NCBI GenBank assembly: GCA_034006035.1
Contig: JAVETN010000003.1
Location: forward strand, 1-64,000
Direction of reading: 5' to 3'
From: Desulforegulaceae bacterium
Lineage (GTDB): Bacteria > Desulfobacterota > Desulfobacteria > Desulfobacterales > JACKCP01
Length of the DNA stretch: 64,000 nucleotides
Shown: piece after piece, positions 50,672 through 63,900 of the stretch
Layout of the letters: each line of letters starts with the position of its first letter
How positions within the stretch are numbered: position 1 is the stretch's first letter
Program-made: the position numbers and the translations under genes
The notes under the pieces: generated by a model
The model's input: the letters and a program-made list of their open reading frames with translations, nothing else
The model's database searches: none
What the model was told of the DNA's origin: nothing

Positions 50672-51625
50672 CTATCTTCTTTTGGATAAAAAAGGATCTA
50701 AAATTCCTGAAATTTCCAACAAATAAAATAAAGTGGGAAAATAATTTCTTAACCCCATATAATCAGAAATATTTTTTCTTTTCATGGAGTATAAATTAAA
50801 AGATTCCGTATTTGTTCCATATTCAGTTGTAACAGCATAATCATAGCCTGCTTTTTTTACAATAAACTCAATTTCTTTATTCCAGGCCCCTCTAGGATAG
50901 CAAAATCCATTAACTGGAGTTTTAACTTTTTCCTCTAATAATTTTTTAGACAAATTAACTTCTTTTTCAACTTCAGATTCACTCAAATCTGTTAAAGGTA
51001 TATGGCTTAATGTATGAGAACCTATGGAAAAGTTATGTTTACTAAGGTCTTCAATTTCTTTCCAATTCATCAGCAGCCTTTTTCCAGCATAGGCTCCAAA
51101 AGCATCCTTAAGAGTATTCAAAAAATTATCCCTGTCCTTTTCAGACATTAAATTTATTTTTTGAACAAGGAGTCTGCAAAATTTACCATCTGATTGATTT
51201 TTGCTGGAAACATCCTCAAACTGTGAATATAGTTTTTTTTGTCCTTCAAAAAAAATTATAAAGTTTTTGGTATGTTTTTTTACTAAATGAAAAAGATAAT
51301 CCCACCAATAAGGCTCATTGTTTTCTATTTGATTAACTGGAATAAAAAAAGTTGCAGGTACCTTATATTTTTTTAAAATCGGCATAGCAAGATCATAATT
51401 ATCTTTATATCCATCATCAAAAGTAATTGCTACTCTGGTGTTTGAATACTTACCTTTTCTTATTTCATCTGCTGAGATTTTCAAATCAGCAAAATCATAA
51501 AAAAAAGAAATGCTTTTTATAAGAGATTTAAAACTTGATAAATCAATTGCCATTGGGGGGATAAAATAATTTTCATTTTTTTCAACAATTCTATGAAATG
51601 TTAAAATACTCAATTTATTTTTCAT
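50672..51625 (-). CDS. Polysaccharide deacetylase-like protein 2
   Basis: A 317-residue deacetylase. NodB-type motifs: ITFDDGYKDNYDLAMPIL near residue 73 (metal Asp), IGSHTLSHIPLTDLSESEVEKEV near 202 (metal His pair), and GFCYPRGAWNKEI near 238 (catalytic Arg/Pro). It overlaps the polymerase gene by 11 bases. It is one of three deacetylases in the locus. Confidence 0.85.
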   Translation of the reverse strand: MKNKLSILTFHRIVEKNENYFIPPMAIDLSSFKSLIKSISFFYDFADLKISADEIRKGKYSNTRVAITFDDGYKDNYDLAMPILKKYKVPATFFIPVNQIENNEPYWWDYLFHLVKKHTKNFIIFFEGQKKLYSQFEDVSSKNQSDGKFCRLLVQKINLMSEKDRDNFLNTLKDAFGAYAGKRLLMNWKEIEDLSKHNFSIGSHTLSHIPLTDLSESEVEKEVNLSKKLLEEKVKTPVNGFCYPRGAWNKEIEFIVKKAGYDYAVTTEYGTNTESFNLYSMKRKNISDYMGLRNYFPTLFYLLEISGILDPFLSKRR

Positions 51626-52898
51626 TTGCTAAATCCATAATTGAATTATCAAGACATCGTTTCAAAAAAACAGGAAACAATAAAAGCCAATAAAATTCTT
51701 CTATATAAGTATGTGTCAAAAAAATAGTTGTAACAAGAAACATTACCAGAGAAAGTCTTAAAGCAAAAACCTCTAGTGCGTATTTCTCTTGCAAAACTTC
51801 ATTATCTTCTATTCTCTTTGAAACTGAAGACAAAACTCTAAAAGCATTTAAAGTCAGCAAGATTAACAAAACAAACCCCTGAACACCTAGTTCAGCTAGA
51901 CACCTGAAAAAAGTATTGTGAGTGTCTCTTCCTTCCATCTCTGGATTATAGCTACCAATTAAAAACTTAAATTTTCCTTCACCTATGCCAAAAGGGTAAT
52001 CTCTAAACATTTCCACAGCAGCAATCCAGGCATTGACTCTTCCTGCTGATGATGATCCCATTTCTTCTGTTCTAGTCTCTATGGTATCCATTCTTTTCCA
52101 AAATTTATCATCAGTAACACTTATAAAGCCTATTAAGCCTACAATTAATAAAATGATAATTTTTTTTCTGTATTTCTTTTGTGAAATTATTATTGAAAAA
52201 AAACAACCAACTGCTATTGCTAAAAATGAACCCCTAGATCTTATCAACACAAGGGTGTTAGCTATTAAAGCCGCCCCTCCAAAACATAAAACTTTTTCTT
52301 TGATATTGCCCTTCAAAAACTTTACAGCAACCCATGGAGCAATCATTAAAAAATGTGCTGCTAAAAAATTTCCTTCGCTAAAATCAGAACCGCCCCTTCC
52401 AGCATGTAAACGCCCATCAAAATACCTAAAAGACCCGTAAACTGATATTTCAAAGGCACAATAAAAAGCACTAAAAACATAAATCCATGTCATTGTATTG
52501 TAATATTTAAAATCAGTAACAATATGCGATACTAAAAATATAACAAAAAAAACTTTTAACATTTTTGTTGAGTTACTATCTGATGGCAAATTTAAACCAA
52601 TAATATCTGAAAGCAAAATTGTTAAAACAAACATAAAAAAAATTATTTCCTGGCTTTCAAACCACTTGTTAAATCTCAGTTTGGAAAAATGAATCAAAAA
52701 ACCCATAAAAATAGAAATAGATAAAAGAAATGCATATCTTGATAAAAAAGAAGGAATATAACTACTCCACCAATAACTAAGGGGATTTACATTGTAAAAA
52801 AGAATATAACCATAAGCACCAAATATAGGCCCTGATGCAATTGAAAGAACAAGGGAAGATAAAAGTATAAAAATATATAAAATAGTTTTTAAAGGCAT
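51615..52898 (-). CDS. O-antigen ligase/polymerase-like protein (probably exosortase-associated)
   Basis: A 427-residue polytopic protein with about eleven membrane helices. The segment SAGRVNAWIAAVEMFRDYPFGIGEGKFKFL near residue 286 and RDTHNTFFRCLAELGVQG are the signature of WaaL/Wzy-type enzymes and look close to the exosortase A-associated O-glycosylation ligase (TIGR03097). It would polymerise the repeat unit or transfer it to protein. The gene overlaps the deacetylase by 11 bases. Confidence 0.8.
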   Translation of the reverse strand: MPLKTILYIFILLSSLVLSIASGPIFGAYGYILFYNVNPLSYWWSSYIPSFLSRYAFLLSISIFMGFLIHFSKLRFNKWFESQEIIFFMFVLTILLSDIIGLNLPSDSNSTKMLKVFFVIFLVSHIVTDFKYYNTMTWIYVFSAFYCAFEISVYGSFRYFDGRLHAGRGGSDFSEGNFLAAHFLMIAPWVAVKFLKGNIKEKVLCFGGAALIANTLVLIRSRGSFLAIAVGCFFSIIISQKKYRKKIIILLIVGLIGFISVTDDKFWKRMDTIETRTEEMGSSSAGRVNAWIAAVEMFRDYPFGIGEGKFKFLIGSYNPEMEGRDTHNTFFRCLAELGVQGFVLLILLTLNAFRVLSSVSKRIEDNEVLQEKYALEVFALRLSLVMFLVTTIFLTHTYIEEFYWLLLFPVFLKRCLDNSIMDLANEK

Positions 52899-52938: not shown

Positions 52939-54387
52939 CTAATTTTTACTAAAAAACATTCTTTTTACTTGTCTAATTTCTTCCATAGTGAAAAATTTAA
53001 ACACAAAAAGAACAACAAGGTACAATATTAAAAGAAATGTTTTTATTATAATAGAAACAACCAAAGATTCATCAATACTGTTTGCAATTAGGAAAAAAGA
53101 AACAGCAGTAAAAAATAAAATAAAAAATTTAAAATATTCAAACTTTATATAATATAATTTTTGAGCAAAGAAATAAGTCAACAATGAAAGCGTAAAAAAA
53201 GTTATAAGAGTTGAAATTCCAGCCCCTATTACCCCGTAATTTTTGATGAAAAATATATTGGCTATGATATTTACCCCTGCAACTATCAATTGTATCAAAG
53301 CAATATATTTTGTCTGATACCTGTAAAGAATTCCAAAGGAAACAAAACTTGATATGCCAAAGAATATATAACTTAAAACAATTAAAGGAACAACTTCACT
53401 TCCACCCTGAAAAGAATCTGATGCTATAATAAATATTATTTCTCTTATATATACACTTATAACCAACCCTACTGAAACAACAAAAAAGTTATAATAAGTA
53501 AAAACTTTTGAAAAAATTTCTTTGCCATTTTCTTTTTTTGCTATTTCATATCGCTGAGTATCCCATATTCTAAAAATAGGCTGTGAAATAAGAACAGAGA
53601 TCATCATTCCAAATTTATATCCCAAAGAATAAAGTCCCAGTTCATTTAGTTCACAATATTTCTGAATAAAAAACCGATCTGAAAAATGAATAACAAACAT
53701 TGAAAGTGAAGCAGGAATCAGGGGAAGAGCATACTTGACCATTTCTAAAAGTTTTTTAATGCTGAATCTTAAGCGTACTCCTTTTAAAGTAACCGGTACA
53801 ACAATAACAGCATTTATACTTTTAGTGATCAGCATGCTAAGTAAAATTCCATAAACCTTCATTCCCATAAAAACAACAAACAAAATATTGAGACTCAAGC
53901 TAAGAACTAATGTCATTGTAGATAAAAAAGAATACAAAACAGATTTTTTCTGGACAATTAAATATGTCTCTGAAATTAAATATATATTTTGTATTGCAAA
54001 ACATATAAAAACCATTTGAAAAGAAAGTAAATACTCATCAGTACCTGTGACTAAAAAAGAAATGTTTTTGCTGAATAACTGAAGAACACATAAAAGAAAT
54101 ATACTTAAAATTGCGGAAAATATTAAAGCTGTTGTAAACACAGCTTCTTTATCTTCCTTAGAATCATAGTTATGGTAATACCTTATTAAGGCACCACCAA
54201 GCCTCATACCAACTATCATTCCTACAATTTCAAGGGTAAGATCAAGTAATTCCAAAACACCATAATCAGCTGGAGTCAAGAATCTTGTATAAACAGGGAT
54301 CATAAGAAATCCGATCCCTTTTTTCAAAAAATTAGCACTGCCATATATTGCACTATGCTTGATTAACTCTTTAAACTCTTTTAGCAA
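52939..54387 (-). CDS. Wzx-type flippase (polysaccharide transporter)
   Basis: A 482-residue protein with 12 or more membrane helices, a MATE/MOP-type oligosaccharide flippase: FLTPADYGVLELLDLTLEIVGMIVGMR near the N-terminus is typical of the family, as is the later run of helices (GVIGAGISTLITFFTLSLL). It turns lipid-linked repeat units across the inner membrane. It begins with TTG at 54387, 37 bases after the selenoprotein's stop. Confidence 0.9.
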   Translation of the reverse strand: MLKEFKELIKHSAIYGSANFLKKGIGFLMIPVYTRFLTPADYGVLELLDLTLEIVGMIVGMRLGGALIRYYHNYDSKEDKEAVFTTALIFSAILSIFLLCVLQLFSKNISFLVTGTDEYLLSFQMVFICFAIQNIYLISETYLIVQKKSVLYSFLSTMTLVLSLSLNILFVVFMGMKVYGILLSMLITKSINAVIVVPVTLKGVRLRFSIKKLLEMVKYALPLIPASLSMFVIHFSDRFFIQKYCELNELGLYSLGYKFGMMISVLISQPIFRIWDTQRYEIAKKENGKEIFSKVFTYYNFFVVSVGLVISVYIREIIFIIASDSFQGGSEVVPLIVLSYIFFGISSFVSFGILYRYQTKYIALIQLIVAGVNIIANIFFIKNYGVIGAGISTLITFFTLSLLTYFFAQKLYYIKFEYFKFFILFFTAVSFFLIANSIDESLVVSIIIKTFLLILYLVVLFVFKFFTMEEIRQVKRMFFSKN

Positions 54388-54424: not shown

Positions 54425-54904
54425 TTAACGATACTGAGACTTTATTACAAAAGGAAAACCAACATCTGCCATTGCACCAACTCCGCCTATAGAAACAAAA
54501 ACTTTTCGTTTCAAACCTTTTTCAATAAAATTAGCTGCCGCACGGGCCGCTGTACCTTCTCCGGGTCCTCAAGGTCAGTAAACAATAAGACATTTTTTGT
54601 TCTTTAACGGCAGTTTATTTGGATTTATTTTTGCTATCTGTCCTTCAGTAAAATGGAATGCTCCGGGAATCAAATCTTTGTTATGATAGGAAACCAAAAT
54701 AAATAAAGCCTGATTTGAATTATAAAGATTTAGAGCTGTATTGGCTGGAATTCTGGGAACCTCAGGGTAATACTTAGGGACTGCCTTTAAATACCCATGC
54801 TTAATAAGTTTTAAATTAATAGGATGAACATTCTTTGAAAAAACATTCGAAGAAAACCCAACAAATAAAACTAAAAATAAGAATATAATCTTTATTCTTT
54901 TCAT
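54425..54904 (-). CDS. Exported rhodanese-like protein with two in-frame UGA codons (probable di-selenocysteine protein)
   Basis: A 159-residue exported rhodanese homolog if two UGA codons are read as selenocysteine. The signal peptide is about residues 1-24 (IIFLFLVLFVGFSSNVFS). Then come LIPGAFHF and the strand KKCLIVY, then UGA (54575-54577) Pro UGA (54569-54571) GPGEGTAARAAANFIEKG and GGVGAMADVGFPF, to a TAA at 54425. Sec would be residues 110 and 112, where rhodaneses have their catalytic Cys (position 110) and loop. Downstream codons are perfectly rhodanese-like, so this is recoding, not decay. AAGGAG precedes ATG 54904. It is in one operon with the sulfotransferase and E1-like genes. 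Reading only to the first UGA would lose a third of the protein. What it transfers, and to what, is unknown. Confidence 0.8.
54533..54551 (-). promoter_or_regulatory. Candidate bacterial SECIS hairpin
   Basis: In the mRNA, AGC-G-GCC, loop CGUGC, GGC-A-GCU forms a six-pair stem with one mismatch. The G-U of the loop falls about 29 bases after the second UGA and about 35 after the first, inside the 16-37 window usual for bacterial SECIS elements. The stretch is far richer in G+C than the rest of the gene. A second possible hairpin (ACCUU with AAGGU around a 12-base loop) involves the first UGA directly. Folding was by eye. Confidence 0.5.
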
Positions 54905-54913
54905 ATTCACTCC

Positions 54914-55666
54914 TTATATATTATCCCGCCTTGGAAAGGTTATCTTTTCTCTTTTTAAATACCTGTATAAATAATAGTAAATAAAAGCCTTAAGTATTGA
55001 AAAAGTTCTATATCTTTTTTTAAATAAAACCCCTTTGTAAATATTTGTTAAATCTTTAAACTCAATATTTAAATTATAAATTTTATTTATTTTTTTTATA
55101 AATTCTTGAGGGTTTATAATTAGATCCTCAAAAACAAACTTATGATCAAAAAGCCCATTGTTTTCCAAATATTTCATATAACTCTTGTGATAATTAGAGT
55201 TCATTTGTCCATGCTCTTTAAAACTCATAGGAATTTTACGGCTAAGAATCAACCCTGAATAACTTTGAAAAGGATCCCTATCAATAAATATAAAATCAGC
55301 ATTATTGACTTCACTAAATTGATCCCAAAAATGTATAGTGTATGAAAGTCGTGGATCTTTCCACAACCAAGGACCATTGGCATTGCATTTATCAATAAAC
55401 TTTTGAAATATATCAGGATTAAGAGTTTTTTTGAGCTGGGAGATTTTTTCAATTGAAGGAGGTGGAATGTCATTACAATCTCTTCTGCCAAATCCTGATG
55501 CCTTCAAAATTTCAATATTTAAATCTACCAGTTCTGAGTTTTCATAAGTATCAAAATTAAGTTTTTTAGTTTCTTCCCCAAGCCAGTAACCTTGAGTGGC
55601 AATCAGTCCAGTAAGAACAGAACTTCCACTTGAACCAGTTGTAAAAACAACAATATTTTTTTTCAT
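54914..55666 (-). CDS. Sulfotransferase-family protein
   Basis: A 250-residue sulfotransferase-like enzyme. The PAPS 5'-phosphosulfate loop is FTTGSSGSSVLTGLI near residue 8, and GPWLWKDPRLSYTIHFWD with IFIDRDPFQSYSGLI near 98-135 holds the 3'-phosphate-binding Arg/Ser. It would move sulfate from PAPS to a sugar hydroxyl or amine. PAPS could come from the APS kinase at 36777. The ATG overlaps the E1-like gene stop (ATGA), and its stop is 9 bases before the Sec-rhodanese start. Confidence 0.85.
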   Translation of the reverse strand: MKKNIVVFTTGSSGSSVLTGLIATQGYWLGEETKKLNFDTYENSELVDLNIEILKASGFGRRDCNDIPPPSIEKISQLKKTLNPDIFQKFIDKCNANGPWLWKDPRLSYTIHFWDQFSEVNNADFIFIDRDPFQSYSGLILSRKIPMSFKEHGQMNSNYHKSYMKYLENNGLFDHKFVFEDLIINPQEFIKKINKIYNLNIEFKDLTNIYKGVLFKKRYRTFSILKAFIYYYLYRYLKREKITFPRRDNI

Positions 55667-56499
55667 AATGAAGCCTTAGATTTAATATATTCAAAAATTT
55701 TTCTATAAATATCCTTGTTGAGAAATGAAGTGGAGTTTTTTATTTGCATTTTATTGTCATAAAGTTCAAAATTTAAATATTTTGGATATTTAACAGCTTT
55801 TCCTTTTCCAATTATAAGCTTTATTGCTTCACTTACAATTAAGCAACCAACCATATTTGTTACAAAGTTTAGTGATCCAGAGGTTTGGTGAACAAATTTA
55901 TTATCAAACTCAATGAGTTCATCTTCAGTCATTTCTGTAATAGGTTTAACATTTTTATACTTAAACTTTCTCCAGATTTTTTCTAAAAAGCTTTCACATT
56001 CAGAATATCTATAATCAAAGGATTGAACCCTTCCCCCACTAATATTTGCATATCCATTGACTAAAGGAATTTTTCTTTTTTGAGCTGCAAGATAAAAAAG
56101 TTTACATGAAGGATAGTCTGCACTTTGTATCATAATATCTGCACCTTCTGAAAACTTGTCGATATTTGAATTTGTAACTCTATCAGTAATTTTTATTTCT
56201 ATTTCAGCATAAGGGTTAATTTCTTTTATTCTTTCTGCTGTAATATCAACTTTATATTTTCCAAGTGTTTTTGATGTTGCAAATAACTGCCTGTTCAGGT
56301 TTGTTACTTCATATTTATCCATATCAAGAAGCCTGAATTTTTTAACTCCCCATCTGGCAAAAAGTTCAGCTGTTATTGCACCAACACCGCCAAGACCAGA
56401 AATTGCAAAAGTTGTATTTCGAATTTTATTCATTGAAAAATCATCTATAAATAACGATGTCCGATTCAGCATTCCTTTGATATATTCCTGTTCTTCCAA
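55663..56499 (-). CDS. E1/ThiF/MoeB-like adenylyltransferase
   Basis: A 278-residue ubiquitin-activating-enzyme-like protein. The nucleotide loop is AISGLGGVGAITAELFARWGV, followed by DKYEVTNLNRQLFATSKTLGKYKVD (Arg and Lys of the adenylation site) and DIMIQSADYPSCKLFYLAAQ, then NGYANISGGRVQSFDY. No CxxC zinc pairs are present, unlike MoeB. It adenylates the C-terminus of a small partner protein in known relatives; no ThiS/MoaD-like gene lies nearby. I use the TTG at 56499, one base after the previous stop and preceded by AAGGG; a longer reading to 56544 would overlap the glycosyltransferase by 44 bases. Confidence 0.8.
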   Translation of the reverse strand: MEEQEYIKGMLNRTSLFIDDFSMNKIRNTTFAISGLGGVGAITAELFARWGVKKFRLLDMDKYEVTNLNRQLFATSKTLGKYKVDITAERIKEINPYAEIEIKITDRVTNSNIDKFSEGADIMIQSADYPSCKLFYLAAQKRKIPLVNGYANISGGRVQSFDYRYSECESFLEKIWRKFKYKNVKPITEMTEDELIEFDNKFVHQTSGSLNFVTNMVGCLIVSEAIKLIIGKGKAVKYPKYLNFELYDNKMQIKNSTSFLNKDIYRKIFEYIKSKASL

Positions 56500-56500
56500 T

Positions 56501-57712
56501 TTACAGCCCTTTTTTTGATTTATTATAGATGTCTTTATAAACAAAAGTAGTTTTTGACCATTTATGATTAGAATTTACCCATTTCAAACCAAACTCCTGC
56601 AATTGGTTAATTTTAGTTTCACTGTCCAATAAATCTGACAGCTTCTTTTTTAAATCAGGCAAATTTCCAGCCTTAAAAAGGAGACCGTTTTTTCCGTTAA
56701 TAATCAACTCTTTGTGTCCTCCCACATCACTTGCAACAAGAGCTTTTTTCATAGCCATTGCTTCAAGAGGTTTCAAGGGAGTAACAAGCTCTGTAAGCCT
56801 CATGGAATATCTTGGATAACAAAGAATATTTATAATTGAATATACTTCTGCAATTTTTGAATGATCTATTCTGCCCGGCATTAAGACTTTTTCATTAATT
56901 CCCAATTGATTAACAAGCTCTTCAAGCTCTTTTTTCATTTCACCTCCACCTACTAAAAGAAGAAATGCATCGGATTGAGTTTTAGATATTGATGCAAAAG
57001 CCTTTACAAGCAAATCAAGTCCTTCATACCTATAAAAAGAACCTACAAATCCAATTATTTTTTTATTTGAAAGATTCCATTCTTTTTTTAACCCGGAATC
57101 CGAAACAGCAGGTTTTAAATGTGCTGGATCAATGCCGTTAAAAACCGGGGTTATTTTATTTTTATCAATGCCTCTATTAACTAAGTCCTGCTTTATTCCT
57201 TCACAAAGAACTGCTATATGAGATGCTTTTTTGCACAAAAATGTTTCAAGGTTTCTAGTGATCTTATATTTAAAGGAATTTTCTGTATATGTGCCATGAT
57301 CCACAGCTGCATCTTCCCAGAAAGCTCTGATTTCAGATACAAAAGGAAGGTTAAATTTCTTTGCTGCAAAATATGCGGGAAATCCATTTAAAACAGGGGA
57401 ATGTGCTTGAATAATATCTGGTTTTTCAATTTTTATAATTTCTTTAATTCGCTTATAAAGCCGGCCCATCAAAAAAAGTTCATAAAAAAAAGGAATTCTG
57501 GGTTTTGCAAAACCTGTTCTATAGTATTTTATACCGTCAATTATTTCTTGTCTTGTTTTTATTGGATCTTCCAGATTTTCTTCATGTTTTGGAGAAGTCA
57601 AAACAATTGGAGCAAATCCGTTTTTTTGCTGAGCGAGAAATATATTCTGACTTCTGAATGTATAGCCACTGTGTAAAGGAAGACTATGATCAAGAATGTG
57701 AAGGATTTTCAT
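56501..57712 (-). CDS. Exosortase A-associated glycosyltransferase (TIGR04063-like)
   Basis: A 403-residue GT4 enzyme. The start MKILHILDHSLPLHSGYTFR is diagnostic of TIGR04063 (PEP-CTERM/exosortase A-associated group). Later, FVSEIRAFWEDAAVDHGTYTENS and IGFVGSFYRYEGLDLLVKAFASI, then PLKPLEAMAMKKALVASDVGGH. It adds a sugar early in the repeat unit. Its start lies 23 bases inside the heparinase-like gene, so translation is coupled. Confidence 0.95.
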   Translation of the reverse strand: MKILHILDHSLPLHSGYTFRSQNIFLAQQKNGFAPIVLTSPKHEENLEDPIKTRQEIIDGIKYYRTGFAKPRIPFFYELFLMGRLYKRIKEIIKIEKPDIIQAHSPVLNGFPAYFAAKKFNLPFVSEIRAFWEDAAVDHGTYTENSFKYKITRNLETFLCKKASHIAVLCEGIKQDLVNRGIDKNKITPVFNGIDPAHLKPAVSDSGLKKEWNLSNKKIIGFVGSFYRYEGLDLLVKAFASISKTQSDAFLLLVGGGEMKKELEELVNQLGINEKVLMPGRIDHSKIAEVYSIINILCYPRYSMRLTELVTPLKPLEAMAMKKALVASDVGGHKELIINGKNGLLFKAGNLPDLKKKLSDLLDSETKINQLQEFGLKWVNSNHKWSKTTFVYKDIYNKSKKGL

Positions 57713-61147: not shown

Positions 61148-62182
61148 TTATACAAGGTCTTTTGAAATAAAAGGCCCAATAATTTTTGAAACTTCCAAAG
61201 GCATTTTTTTCCAAAGTTCAATTTTTTTCTGATATTTTGGATTTGCAGGACTTAAGTTGGGAAGGCTTTCAGTATTTATCAACTCATATTGATAGGCTAA
61301 AGGTTCAGGTTTAAATCCCCAATGCTTTTTAAAGCTGAAAGAGCCTGTATTTACTTTACTTCTTCCAAAATCAAAAATATTGCACTTTTTTTCAGCTCCA
61401 AGTTTCATCAATTCCCAATACATAAAATCATTTGGCCCATAACTTCGATATGTAAAGTCTGACCCTGCGTAATATGGAATCATCTGGTTATTATAAGTAA
61501 AATATAAAACTGCTGCTGCAAGCTCATTTTTTTCTGTTTTAACTGTTAATATTCCTGAGTTTTCCTTAAATTCTTCAAGAAAGTTTTTGAAAAACCTTTT
61601 AGGAAAAACAGGGGTTCCAAGCCTGTGATAATTGAGAGAAAGAATTTTATAAAAATCATCAATCAAATGGTGCCCGTTTTCTGATTTTAAACCTGACTTA
61701 AGAGCTTTTCTTACCATAGCCCTGGATTTTCTTGGAATTTCTTTTAAATTTTTGTCATGGTCAAAAGAAATTTCTTTTTTAAAAGTATAATACAATGATT
61801 TAGTAAGAAGACCTTTTTTTTCTGCCCTGTTTCTAAGCTCAAGGTAACTTCCACCTTTGGTTTTGCATATCTCAAGTGCTGAATTAAACAGCTTTCTTTC
61901 TATAAGTTCGTTATCTGCAATTATTCCACCAATTTCAGCAAAAGGGATAGAAACAAAAAAATGACCAAACAAAAGGCTTTTAATTTCAAACACAGGGAAT
62001 ATTCCGCAAATTTTATTGCCTTTTTCTGCATAAAAATAATGGCTTTTGTGTTTAAACGTTTTTTCTACTACTTTTTTCCAGGAAGTCAGATGAAAAACAG
62101 ACCCCAGCTTATGAGATTTGATATATTCATCACAAAAGCTCTGGTTTCTTAAATTGTTTTGAACGGATTTAATTTTTATCAT
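61148..62182 (-). CDS. FemAB-like peptidyltransferase (exosortase-associated, TIGR03019-like)
   Basis: A 344-residue protein of two GNAT folds in the FemAB manner. FHLTSWKKVVEKTFKHKSHYFYAEKG, then LSLNYHRLGTPVFPKRFFKNFLEEF, AAAVLYFTYNNQMIPYYAGSDFTYRSYGPNDFMYWELMKLGAEKKCNIFDFGRSKVNTGSFSFKKHWGF are the family landmarks of TIGR03019. It likely adds an aminoacyl group or other acyl group to a surface polymer. It follows the deacetylase by 12 bases. Confidence 0.9.
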   Translation of the reverse strand: MIKIKSVQNNLRNQSFCDEYIKSHKLGSVFHLTSWKKVVEKTFKHKSHYFYAEKGNKICGIFPVFEIKSLLFGHFFVSIPFAEIGGIIADNELIERKLFNSALEICKTKGGSYLELRNRAEKKGLLTKSLYYTFKKEISFDHDKNLKEIPRKSRAMVRKALKSGLKSENGHHLIDDFYKILSLNYHRLGTPVFPKRFFKNFLEEFKENSGILTVKTEKNELAAAVLYFTYNNQMIPYYAGSDFTYRSYGPNDFMYWELMKLGAEKKCNIFDFGRSKVNTGSFSFKKHWGFKPEPLAYQYELINTESLPNLSPANPKYQKKIELWKKMPLEVSKIIGPFISKDLV

Positions 62183-62194
62183 TTTTTTATAACT

Positions 62195-63052
62195 TTAACT
62201 TACTATAGTGTTTAACTTTAAAAACTCACAGGTTTGAAATGAATTTAAAAGATTTCTTAATTTTTTTTCTGTTTTATCAAGGTTTATATAATGCCTGAAT
62301 TTAAAGCCTTTTGGAGCATCACTTACCCTTGGCTGACCCGGATCAAATTCCCAGGGATGTGCATAAAAAACAAAGGCATTATCTTTTTTTAAAACAGATT
62401 TCATTCCCATCTTAAAAAAAGGAAGCGGAAAAAGCCTGAAATAACCTCCTCCTCCAAGTGGAATAACTTTTTTTCCAAAAGTTAAATTACTTAAAGGGAT
62501 TTCATAAAAGCCATCTGAAACTTCAAAGAAAAAACCTCTTTTTTTCCATGAAGAAATATCAAGCTTTCCATATCTTCCATGCATGGAAAAATTATTATGG
62601 CTTGAATCATAAAGATAGCCTGCTTTTTTTATTGTTTCCAAGATTTCATTTGTTACAGCAAAACTTGGTGCTCTGTAACCTGTAACAGGCTTGTTGATTA
62701 AAGACTCCAGGGTTTCCTTGCTTTTTATTAAATCAAATAAAAGTTCTTTTTTATTTAAATTTGTACATAACTGATGGTTATAACCATGGGATGCTATTTC
62801 ATGGCCTCTTTTATCAATTTCTTTTACAAGCTCTGGAACAATATCTGCAAGCCAGCCTAGAATAAAAAATGTTCCTTTTACTTTAAAAGAAAAAGAATCA
62901 AGAATATCAAGTACTTTAATTGTGTTATCATAAACTCTTAATTCACGTTCTTTCCAGGATGAAAAACTTATATTTTGTTTAAAGTTTTCTACCTGAAACC
63001 AGTCTTCAACATCAAATGTTAGAAATATTTTTTTTTCTGGGTTTATTTTCAT
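62195..63052 (-). CDS. XrtA-associated polysaccharide deacetylase (TIGR03006-like, DUF3473)
   Basis: A 285-residue deacetylase. LTFDVEDWFQVENF near residue 11 (metal Asp), HEIASHGYNHQLCTNLNKKELLFDL near 85 (His pair), TGYRAPSFAVTNEIL near 125, and YAHPWEFDPGQPRVSDAPKGFKFRHYINL at the end, which is the DUF3473 tail of the XrtA-associated group. It overlaps the exosortase start by ATGA. It is the third deacetylase in the locus. Confidence 0.95.
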   Translation of the reverse strand: MKINPEKKIFLTFDVEDWFQVENFKQNISFSSWKERELRVYDNTIKVLDILDSFSFKVKGTFFILGWLADIVPELVKEIDKRGHEIASHGYNHQLCTNLNKKELLFDLIKSKETLESLINKPVTGYRAPSFAVTNEILETIKKAGYLYDSSHNNFSMHGRYGKLDISSWKKRGFFFEVSDGFYEIPLSNLTFGKKVIPLGGGGYFRLFPLPFFKMGMKSVLKKDNAFVFYAHPWEFDPGQPRVSDAPKGFKFRHYINLDKTEKKLRNLLNSFQTCEFLKLNTIVS

Positions 63053-63900
63053 ATCTTTGCTCTTTTAAAATTTTCAATGAAATCAAGAAGTAAATATAAA
63101 AGATATGTAAAACAAAGTGCTGCACCAAACACAACAATTCCAGCCATATCATGCAACAACCCATGGGCTGTTTCAGGGCTGATATAAACTGCTGCAAAGG
63201 CAGTAATTATAAGACGCAATATATTTACAGCCACGGCAATTGGAATTGCTGAAAAAAACAAAATCCATTTACTTATATTTTTCAATGGAGAAATATAAGC
63301 AAATGCACCGCTTAAAGCCAAAAGAGAAGTTAAAGATCTTAAACCAGAGCAGGCATCTACAACTTCAAGACTTGTATTAACAAGGTGTAAAATATTTCCT
63401 TCCCTTAAAACCGATAACCCAAACATTTGAATAATGCTTGTAGCTCCTGATGCTGCAAAAAGCTGCAAAGGAAACGCCAGCTTATTCCATATTATAGAAG
63501 GGATTGGAATCATCAAAAAAAGATATAAAACAGGAATAAAAACTTTTTTGAATATTTTAACTCCCAAAAACCAAATAATAAGGCCGGCAAAAGTTGTTAT
63601 CATGGAAACACGCATTACAAAAAACTCTGCTCCAAGATTTCCTGCTAAATAACAAACAAGGCCCAGACAAATAATTATTATTCCCAAATTTGATGATTTT
63701 ATTTTTGTTTGTTTTAATTCATCAAACCTAAACCAAACCATATAAATAAAAATAAAAGGAATTAAAAACCCATGGGAAAAATTGTCATCTATTGACCAGT
63801 CCTTTACAAGATTTACAATTGTATTAAAAAATACAAAACAAAAAAGGACTGTAATTATGACAAGTTGAATCAGGGCGTCTTTTTTTAGATTTAATTTCAT
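63049..63900 (-). CDS. xrtA: Exosortase A (PEP-CTERM sorting protease/transpeptidase)
   Basis: A 283-residue polytopic protein with about eight membrane helices. The exosortase triad is visible: Cys184 in EVVDACSGLRSLTSLLALS, Arg229 in AVNILRLIITA and His250 in HGLLHDMAGIVVFG. It is expected to recognise the PEP-CTERM signals seen in three proteins of this window and to process them in transit. XrtA proteins commonly carry a C-terminal EpsI/DUF3485 part; this one ends after the last helix, so EpsI is absent or separate. The gene starts at 63900 as part of an ATGA overlap with the gene cut by the window edge. Confidence 0.9.
   Translation of the reverse strand: MKLNLKKDALIQLVIITVLFCFVFFNTIVNLVKDWSIDDNFSHGFLIPFIFIYMVWFRFDELKQTKIKSSNLGIIIICLGLVCYLAGNLGAEFFVMRVSMITTFAGLIIWFLGVKIFKKVFIPVLYLFLMIPIPSIIWNKLAFPLQLFAASGATSIIQMFGLSVLREGNILHLVNTSLEVVDACSGLRSLTSLLALSGAFAYISPLKNISKWILFFSAIPIAVAVNILRLIITAFAAVYISPETAHGLLHDMAGIVVFGAALCFTYLLYLLLDFIENFKRAKI

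Follow-up and report, generated by a model that had tools for sequence, protein, structure and literature searches.

A predicted exported rhodanese-fold selenoprotein with two selenocysteine codons one residue apart in an exosortase-type exopolysaccharide cluster

Two UGA codons one codon apart within an otherwise open frame may end a gene, mark its decay or specify two selenocysteines (Sec). We analysed such a locus in a 64,000-nucleotide stretch (hereafter, the window) of the genome of a Desulforegulaceae bacterium of the sulfate-reducer type. A preliminary description of this DNA had read it as an exported rhodanese-like protein with UGA-Pro-UGA at its catalytic loop. The evidence presented below makes it almost certain that the product of this locus is an exported protein of the rhodanese fold, in whose active-site loop two predicted selenocysteines stand one residue apart.

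The reading frame and the encoded protein

On the minus strand, the translation of 54904..54425 reads MKRIKIIFLFLVLF...KKCLIVY-U110-P-U112-GPGEGTAARAAANFIEKG...GGVGAMADVGFPFVIKSQYR*. The frame contains two in-frame UGAs only, at codon 110 (54575..54577) and codon 112 (54569..54571), and runs on to a TAA at 54427-54425, as had been described. Based on this translation, the coding bias past the UGAs and an alignment of 33 sequences, we consider 54425..54904 (minus) to be a complete selenoprotein gene of 159 residues. The proposed Sec110 corresponds to Cys in most relatives, including the nearest one, whereas at the position of the proposed Sec112 nearly all relatives whose genomes use Sec have Sec, too. 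The conventional ORF call (54575..54910) ends at the first UGA, which agrees with the earlier expectation that standard annotation truncates the gene; the same truncation is to be expected for other genes of this type. The 109-residue product of a stop at the first UGA would lack the active-site loop and everything beyond it.

Such a truncated protein, followed by non-coding sequence, is what a pseudogene or a chance frame would yield. Gene callers do produce the truncated ORF, and the 47-codon frame past UGA112 would be open by chance with P of about 0.02-0.04. However, downstream of the window's 10 genuine TGA stops, a further stop follows within 1-25 codons. The coding log-likelihood of the 47 codons is +13.0, whereas the shifted frames give -30.0 and -18.4, the rhodanese homology spans both UGAs, the read-through protein folds confidently in the model, a putative SECIS hairpin is located at the predicted spot, and the Sec machinery is complete (see below). 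What decisively raises the open frame above chance is that the corresponding site reads UGA-x-UGA in 20 distinct relatives besides the window and Cys-x-UGA in at least 79, and that the sequence downstream of it is conserved. We therefore reject decay, in line with the preliminary description, and assign very little probability to this explanation. Use of UGA as a sense codon throughout the genome is likewise rejected, given that TGA is the stop codon of 10 of the 43 other window genes. Judging from the sequence, the gene very probably encodes a genuine two-Sec rhodanese-fold protein.

The rhodanese identity is borne out by both profile and structure. The read-through protein matches PF00581 over residues 76-142 with 24.0 bits, above the gathering cut-off of 22.2, and all 33 aligned relatives match this family as well; the rhodanese-fold core spans 54428..54760 (minus). 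The AlphaFold model, built with 33 sequences, has a pLDDT of 90.4 and a pTM of 0.80, and rhodaneses come first among the structures that it matches (Z up to 13.9; Foldseek E 3e-7). In the model, the active-site loop (residues 110-116) connects a strand (105-109) to a helix (117-128), and residues 110-112 open the loop in which rhodaneses bear the catalytic Cys; thus, the placement of the UGAs at the catalytic loop holds. Export is supported by a predicted N-terminal signal peptide (54836..54904, minus), in which we recognized by eye a KRIK n-region, a hydrophobic core and a cleavage site near VFS-K; the model has a helix at residues 2-20. The protein is accordingly predicted to be periplasmic.

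The SECIS hairpin and the selenium machinery

A bacterial SECIS hairpin, AGC-G-GCC[CGUGC]GGC-A-GCU, is predicted at 54533..54551 (minus), on the basis of a covariance model (R1) and of covariation in the family. The stem consists of six pairs with one internal G-A mismatch, and the 5-nt loop (54544-54540), the second base of which is G, lies 24 nt past UGA112 and 30 nt past UGA110. According to the published model, bacterial SECIS elements are found 16-37 nt past the UGA and have a loop of 3-9 nt with a G among its first two bases, a stem of 4-16 bp and a minimum free energy of -7.5 or lower (PMC13188914). The window hairpin fits this model in spacing, loop size and loop G, whereas its folding energy of -6.6 kcal/mol (-8.6 kcal/mol with flanks) falls short of -7.5. 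The energy of the hairpin alone is not better than that of shuffled sequences, and the single-sequence z-scores, which are non-significant, were not counted as support.

The support comes from the family instead. The covariance model was built from 46 relatives, with the window gene excluded. All 46 have a 5-bp stem after UGA112 and a 5-nt loop, the second base of which is always G. Among the stem cells, 98.7% are paired and 18 are changed on both sides; three pairs change on both sides. The covariation score is 0.298, compared to 0.151 after shuffling, and 0 of 500 shuffles reach it. The main compensatory exchange is between U-A and C-G, found in 59 and 32 of 92 sequences, respectively, with a single U-G; it falls on the third positions of Ser (AGT/AGC) and Ala (GCA/GCG) codons and thus leaves the protein unchanged. 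In the 64 kb of the window, the top match of R1 is 54568-54527 (12.8 bits, E 0.074), which is where the protein alignment leads one to expect the hairpin. Within the clade of the window gene (see below), R1 scores are 40.3 bits (L174) and 39.6 bits (L077) for full matches, and 8.4 bits for L175, which has an imperfect stem like that of the window. A scan of the site against Rfam did not find SECIS families and returned one chance match only.

The genome from which the window is derived is 97.7% complete and contains the four components that the preliminary description proposed to look for: SelA (613 bits), SelB (365 bits), SelD (352 bits) and tRNA-Sec, the product of selC (81 bits), each over its curated cut-off. 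The SelD gene carries one in-frame TGA itself. We propose that UGA110 and UGA112 are both decoded by SelB and Sec-tRNA-Sec, and that the single hairpin directs the decoding of both. If true, this would be a case of one SECIS serving a pair of UGAs with three bases between them. Less full-length protein would be expected from a gene with two successive UGAs.

Relatives, known families and the exchange of Cys and Sec

Relatives were sought in the same order and phylum; the family of the window organism yielded no genome among the relatives searched. The searches retrieved homologues with a single or a double in-frame TGA where the window gene has its pair. Representing the motif by the residues aligned to positions 110 and 112, we define the following states among the 117 fetched loci: CxU (79), UxU (20, window included), CxC (16), CxS (1) and CxT (1). 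Sec-x-Cys is absent from these 117 sequences, i.e., Sec occupies the first position only where the second position is also Sec, and the second chalcogen (Cys or Sec) is kept in 115 of the 117. One more UxU member (L176) is outside this tally, bringing the UxU examples to 21. They include Deltaproteobacteria bacterium SG8_13 (L093, same place as L067), Desulfobacteraceae UBA2156 (L108, same place as L061) and a Desulfosarcina MAG (L106, same place as L065). Thus, homologues with conserved flanking sequence do exist, as does exchange between Cys and Sec at both positions, the comparison by which the preliminary description had proposed that its reading be judged; the Cys homologues keep the frame past the loop (the CxC loci, e.g., L087).

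The motif was masked in computing a tree of 119 proteins, on which the UxU label requires 14 changes, at least 8 of them forced by well-supported branches; Cys and Sec at position 110 have therefore been exchanged repeatedly. The direction is probably Cys110 to Sec110, because CxU is the common state and UxC is never seen. Position 112 is probably the ancestral Sec, and position 110 a rhodanese-loop Cys turned into Sec by a single TGY-to-TGA change, repeatedly within the family.

These data also bear on the possibility that UGA112 alone specifies Sec, and that UGA110 is a recent nonsense mutation, or a sequencing error, of a Cys codon, with a mostly truncated product. The nearest relative of the window protein (L076, 34% identity) has Cys110, as does most of the clade; neither a close UxU relative at high identity nor a near-identical sequence to confirm UGA110 was found, and the window protein as sole query retrieved no close relative among genome contigs, plasmids or PHROGs. 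Conversely, UGA is present at this exact position in 20 further sequences from many families, indicating that it is tolerated and recurrent there. Furthermore, the distance of UGA110 from the hairpin loop is within the 16-37 nt range, and the rest of the gene retains its coding bias. We consider a nonsense mutation or sequencing error at UGA110 improbable, and proceed with both UGAs as Sec codons.

The window gene belongs to a clade of eight members (support 100/95), six with CxU and two with UxU (YUPU in the window, YURU in L176), which is sister to proteins of the NCBIfam family NF041203 in the tree. This family, 'rhodanese_LYCAU, rhodanese-related (seleno)protein', corresponds to 'Rhodanese-like form 3, CxU, 1 Sec' in the 2026 selenoprotein review (PMC13188914). 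The preliminary remark that rhodanese-like selenoproteins may already be known is thus correct. NF041203 proteins are exported single-domain rhodaneses with a SECIS directly after the active-site loop, as is predicted for the window protein. However, their loop reads Tyr-Cys-x-Sec/Cys, whereas that of the window protein reads Tyr-Sec-Pro-Sec, i.e., Sec replaces the first-position Cys, and has one extra residue; GGxxAM stands in place of GGWxxW, and the window protein falls in the sister clade of exopolysaccharide (EPS) clusters. NF041203 is the best NCBIfam match of the window protein, at 23.5 bits, below the curated cut-off of 115; all eight clade members remain below it (23-67 bits), whereas other UxU proteins, e.g., G232 and G119, exceed it.

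Two further comparisons are relevant. TsoB (NF045694, rhodanese/DsbD fusion-like), given as 'form 5, UxxxxU, 2 Sec' in the same review (PMC13188914), likewise contains a rhodanese and two Sec, but at a spacing of UxxxxU rather than UxU, and it is a long fusion protein (a 572-position model). NF045694 does not match the window protein at E 0.1, and only some relatives match it, weakly. The canonical single-domain rhodaneses (GlpE, 1gmx; the YgaP rhodanese domain, 5hbl; and 3gk5) share the fold (Z 11.6-13.3) and have the catalytic loop after the same strand, but have one catalytic Cys, a shorter loop and no Sec.

A UxU rhodanese is absent among the entries covered of the review's table of 119 families or subfamilies (PMC13188914). 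We found no report of one in the literature searched; an earlier mention in the Olavius selenoproteome paper is possible. The UxU form of NF041203-related rhodaneses, which is rarer than the one-Sec form, and the sister clade of eight EPS-cluster proteins thus both appear to be unrecorded. Since the CxU relatives already form a named family, the novelty is not a Sec rhodanese in itself; it consists in the additional Sec and in the clade from exosortase/EPS clusters. The apparently unlisted double-Sec UxU active site, with 21 examples in many bacteria, is an addition to a known selenoprotein family. The repeated exchange at position 110, together with the restriction of Sec110 to proteins with Sec112, makes a clean natural experiment on the benefit of a second selenium and on the capacity of a single SECIS to act on a pair of near-adjacent UGAs.

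Several individual relatives are worth recording. In L023/L073 (G001), a UxU rhodanese domain is followed by many CxxCH motifs in one 533-residue frame, apparently a multihaem cytochrome-like fusion. The CxC homologue L043/L087 (G261), a relative within the Sec lineage, retains an intact SECIS-like hairpin (AGTGCC-GGTCT-GGCAC), and has probably reverted from Sec to Cys recently, with the hairpin as a relic SECIS. Another divergent set of Sec rhodaneses, the second one (L092, L081, L084, L025 and L072), includes both CxU and UxU, and some of its members lack an N-terminal signal by eye.

The exopolysaccharide cluster and the possible role of the UxU site

The gene sits between a sulfotransferase-like gene (54914..55666, minus; no Pfam match, named by eye) and, next downstream, a Wzx-like polysaccharide flippase (52939..54387, minus). 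Further genes on the minus strand encode a ThiF/MoeB-like adenylyltransferase (55663..56544), an O-antigen ligase/polymerase-like protein associated with exosortase A systems (51615..52898; TIGR03097, below cut-off) and, within 61148..63900, an exosortase, an XrtA polysaccharide deacetylase and a FemAB XrtA/PEP-CTERM protein (TIGR02602, TIGR03006 and TIGR03019, all over cut-off). Because of the latter three genes, we assign the cluster to the exosortase type; the polysaccharide context noted in the preliminary description is confirmed.

All eight members of the clade are in exopolysaccharide clusters. The flanks of L089 hold homologues of the window polymerase (37%), a glycosyltransferase (GT, 41%) and the ThiF-like gene, those of L091 a sulfotransferase-like gene (44% identical to that of the window) and the polymerase, which also has a homologue beside L213. 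L090 and L212-L216 are flanked by differing combinations of GTs, flippase, polymerase or deacetylase. At E 1e-6, the window cluster genes had no match in the flanks of NF041203-type relatives, most of which extend over only 1.5-6 kb. No tie between selenium use and exosortase-type EPS clusters was found in the literature searched, and the clade links the two.

The preliminary description proposed either redox chemistry or sulfur/selenium transfer for the Sec110/Sec112 site. A transferase would leave the double-Sec protein itself intact and dispute only the redox part: the protein would act as a carrier of persulfide or seleno-persulfide, as a periplasmic rhodanese might, not as a redox switch. 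The rhodanese fold and the loop position are consistent with this, with Sec112 or Sec110 at the persulfide-Cys site of rhodaneses, as are the adjoining sulfotransferase-like and ThiF-like genes. However, the loop is longer than those of 6mxv (by alignment) and GlpE-type rhodaneses and is without their usual Arg, and the second chalcogen, conserved almost throughout the family, would be superfluous for a one-Cys transferase. These same features favour a two-electron redox centre over a one-residue persulfide carrier. Hence, transfer is judged less likely and we regard it as doubtful, and redox chemistry of the UxU site, as read from motif and context, is mildly favoured.

UPU is the selenium counterpart of the CPC motif, as in Mia40. 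As a redox centre, the UxU pair in the periplasm would be a fast two-electron couple, forming a diselenide when oxidised, like the disulfide of CxC. Built on a rhodanese scaffold, it may serve the exosortase-type exopolysaccharide cluster; the motif and the gene context point to this role and to the tie with polysaccharide export. A more specific proposal, which we consider rather unlikely, is that the UxU/CxU rhodaneses of such clusters are dedicated to that machinery, which they would reduce or oxidise in the periplasm by diselenide/selenenyl-sulfide chemistry; speculatively, the target could be an active-site Cys, either in the exosortase or in another cluster protein. If true, it would give polysaccharide or PEP-CTERM export its first selenoprotein.

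A sulfur relay from ThiF to rhodanese, as in Uba4/MOCS3, was also considered and set aside: by eye, the ThiF-like protein is without a signal peptide, and the rhodanese has one. The presence of this ThiF/MoeB-like E1 enzyme in an EPS cluster is an observation in its own right, and a 55% identical counterpart occupies the same place in a distant genome, adjoining the gene of the closest relative (L089).
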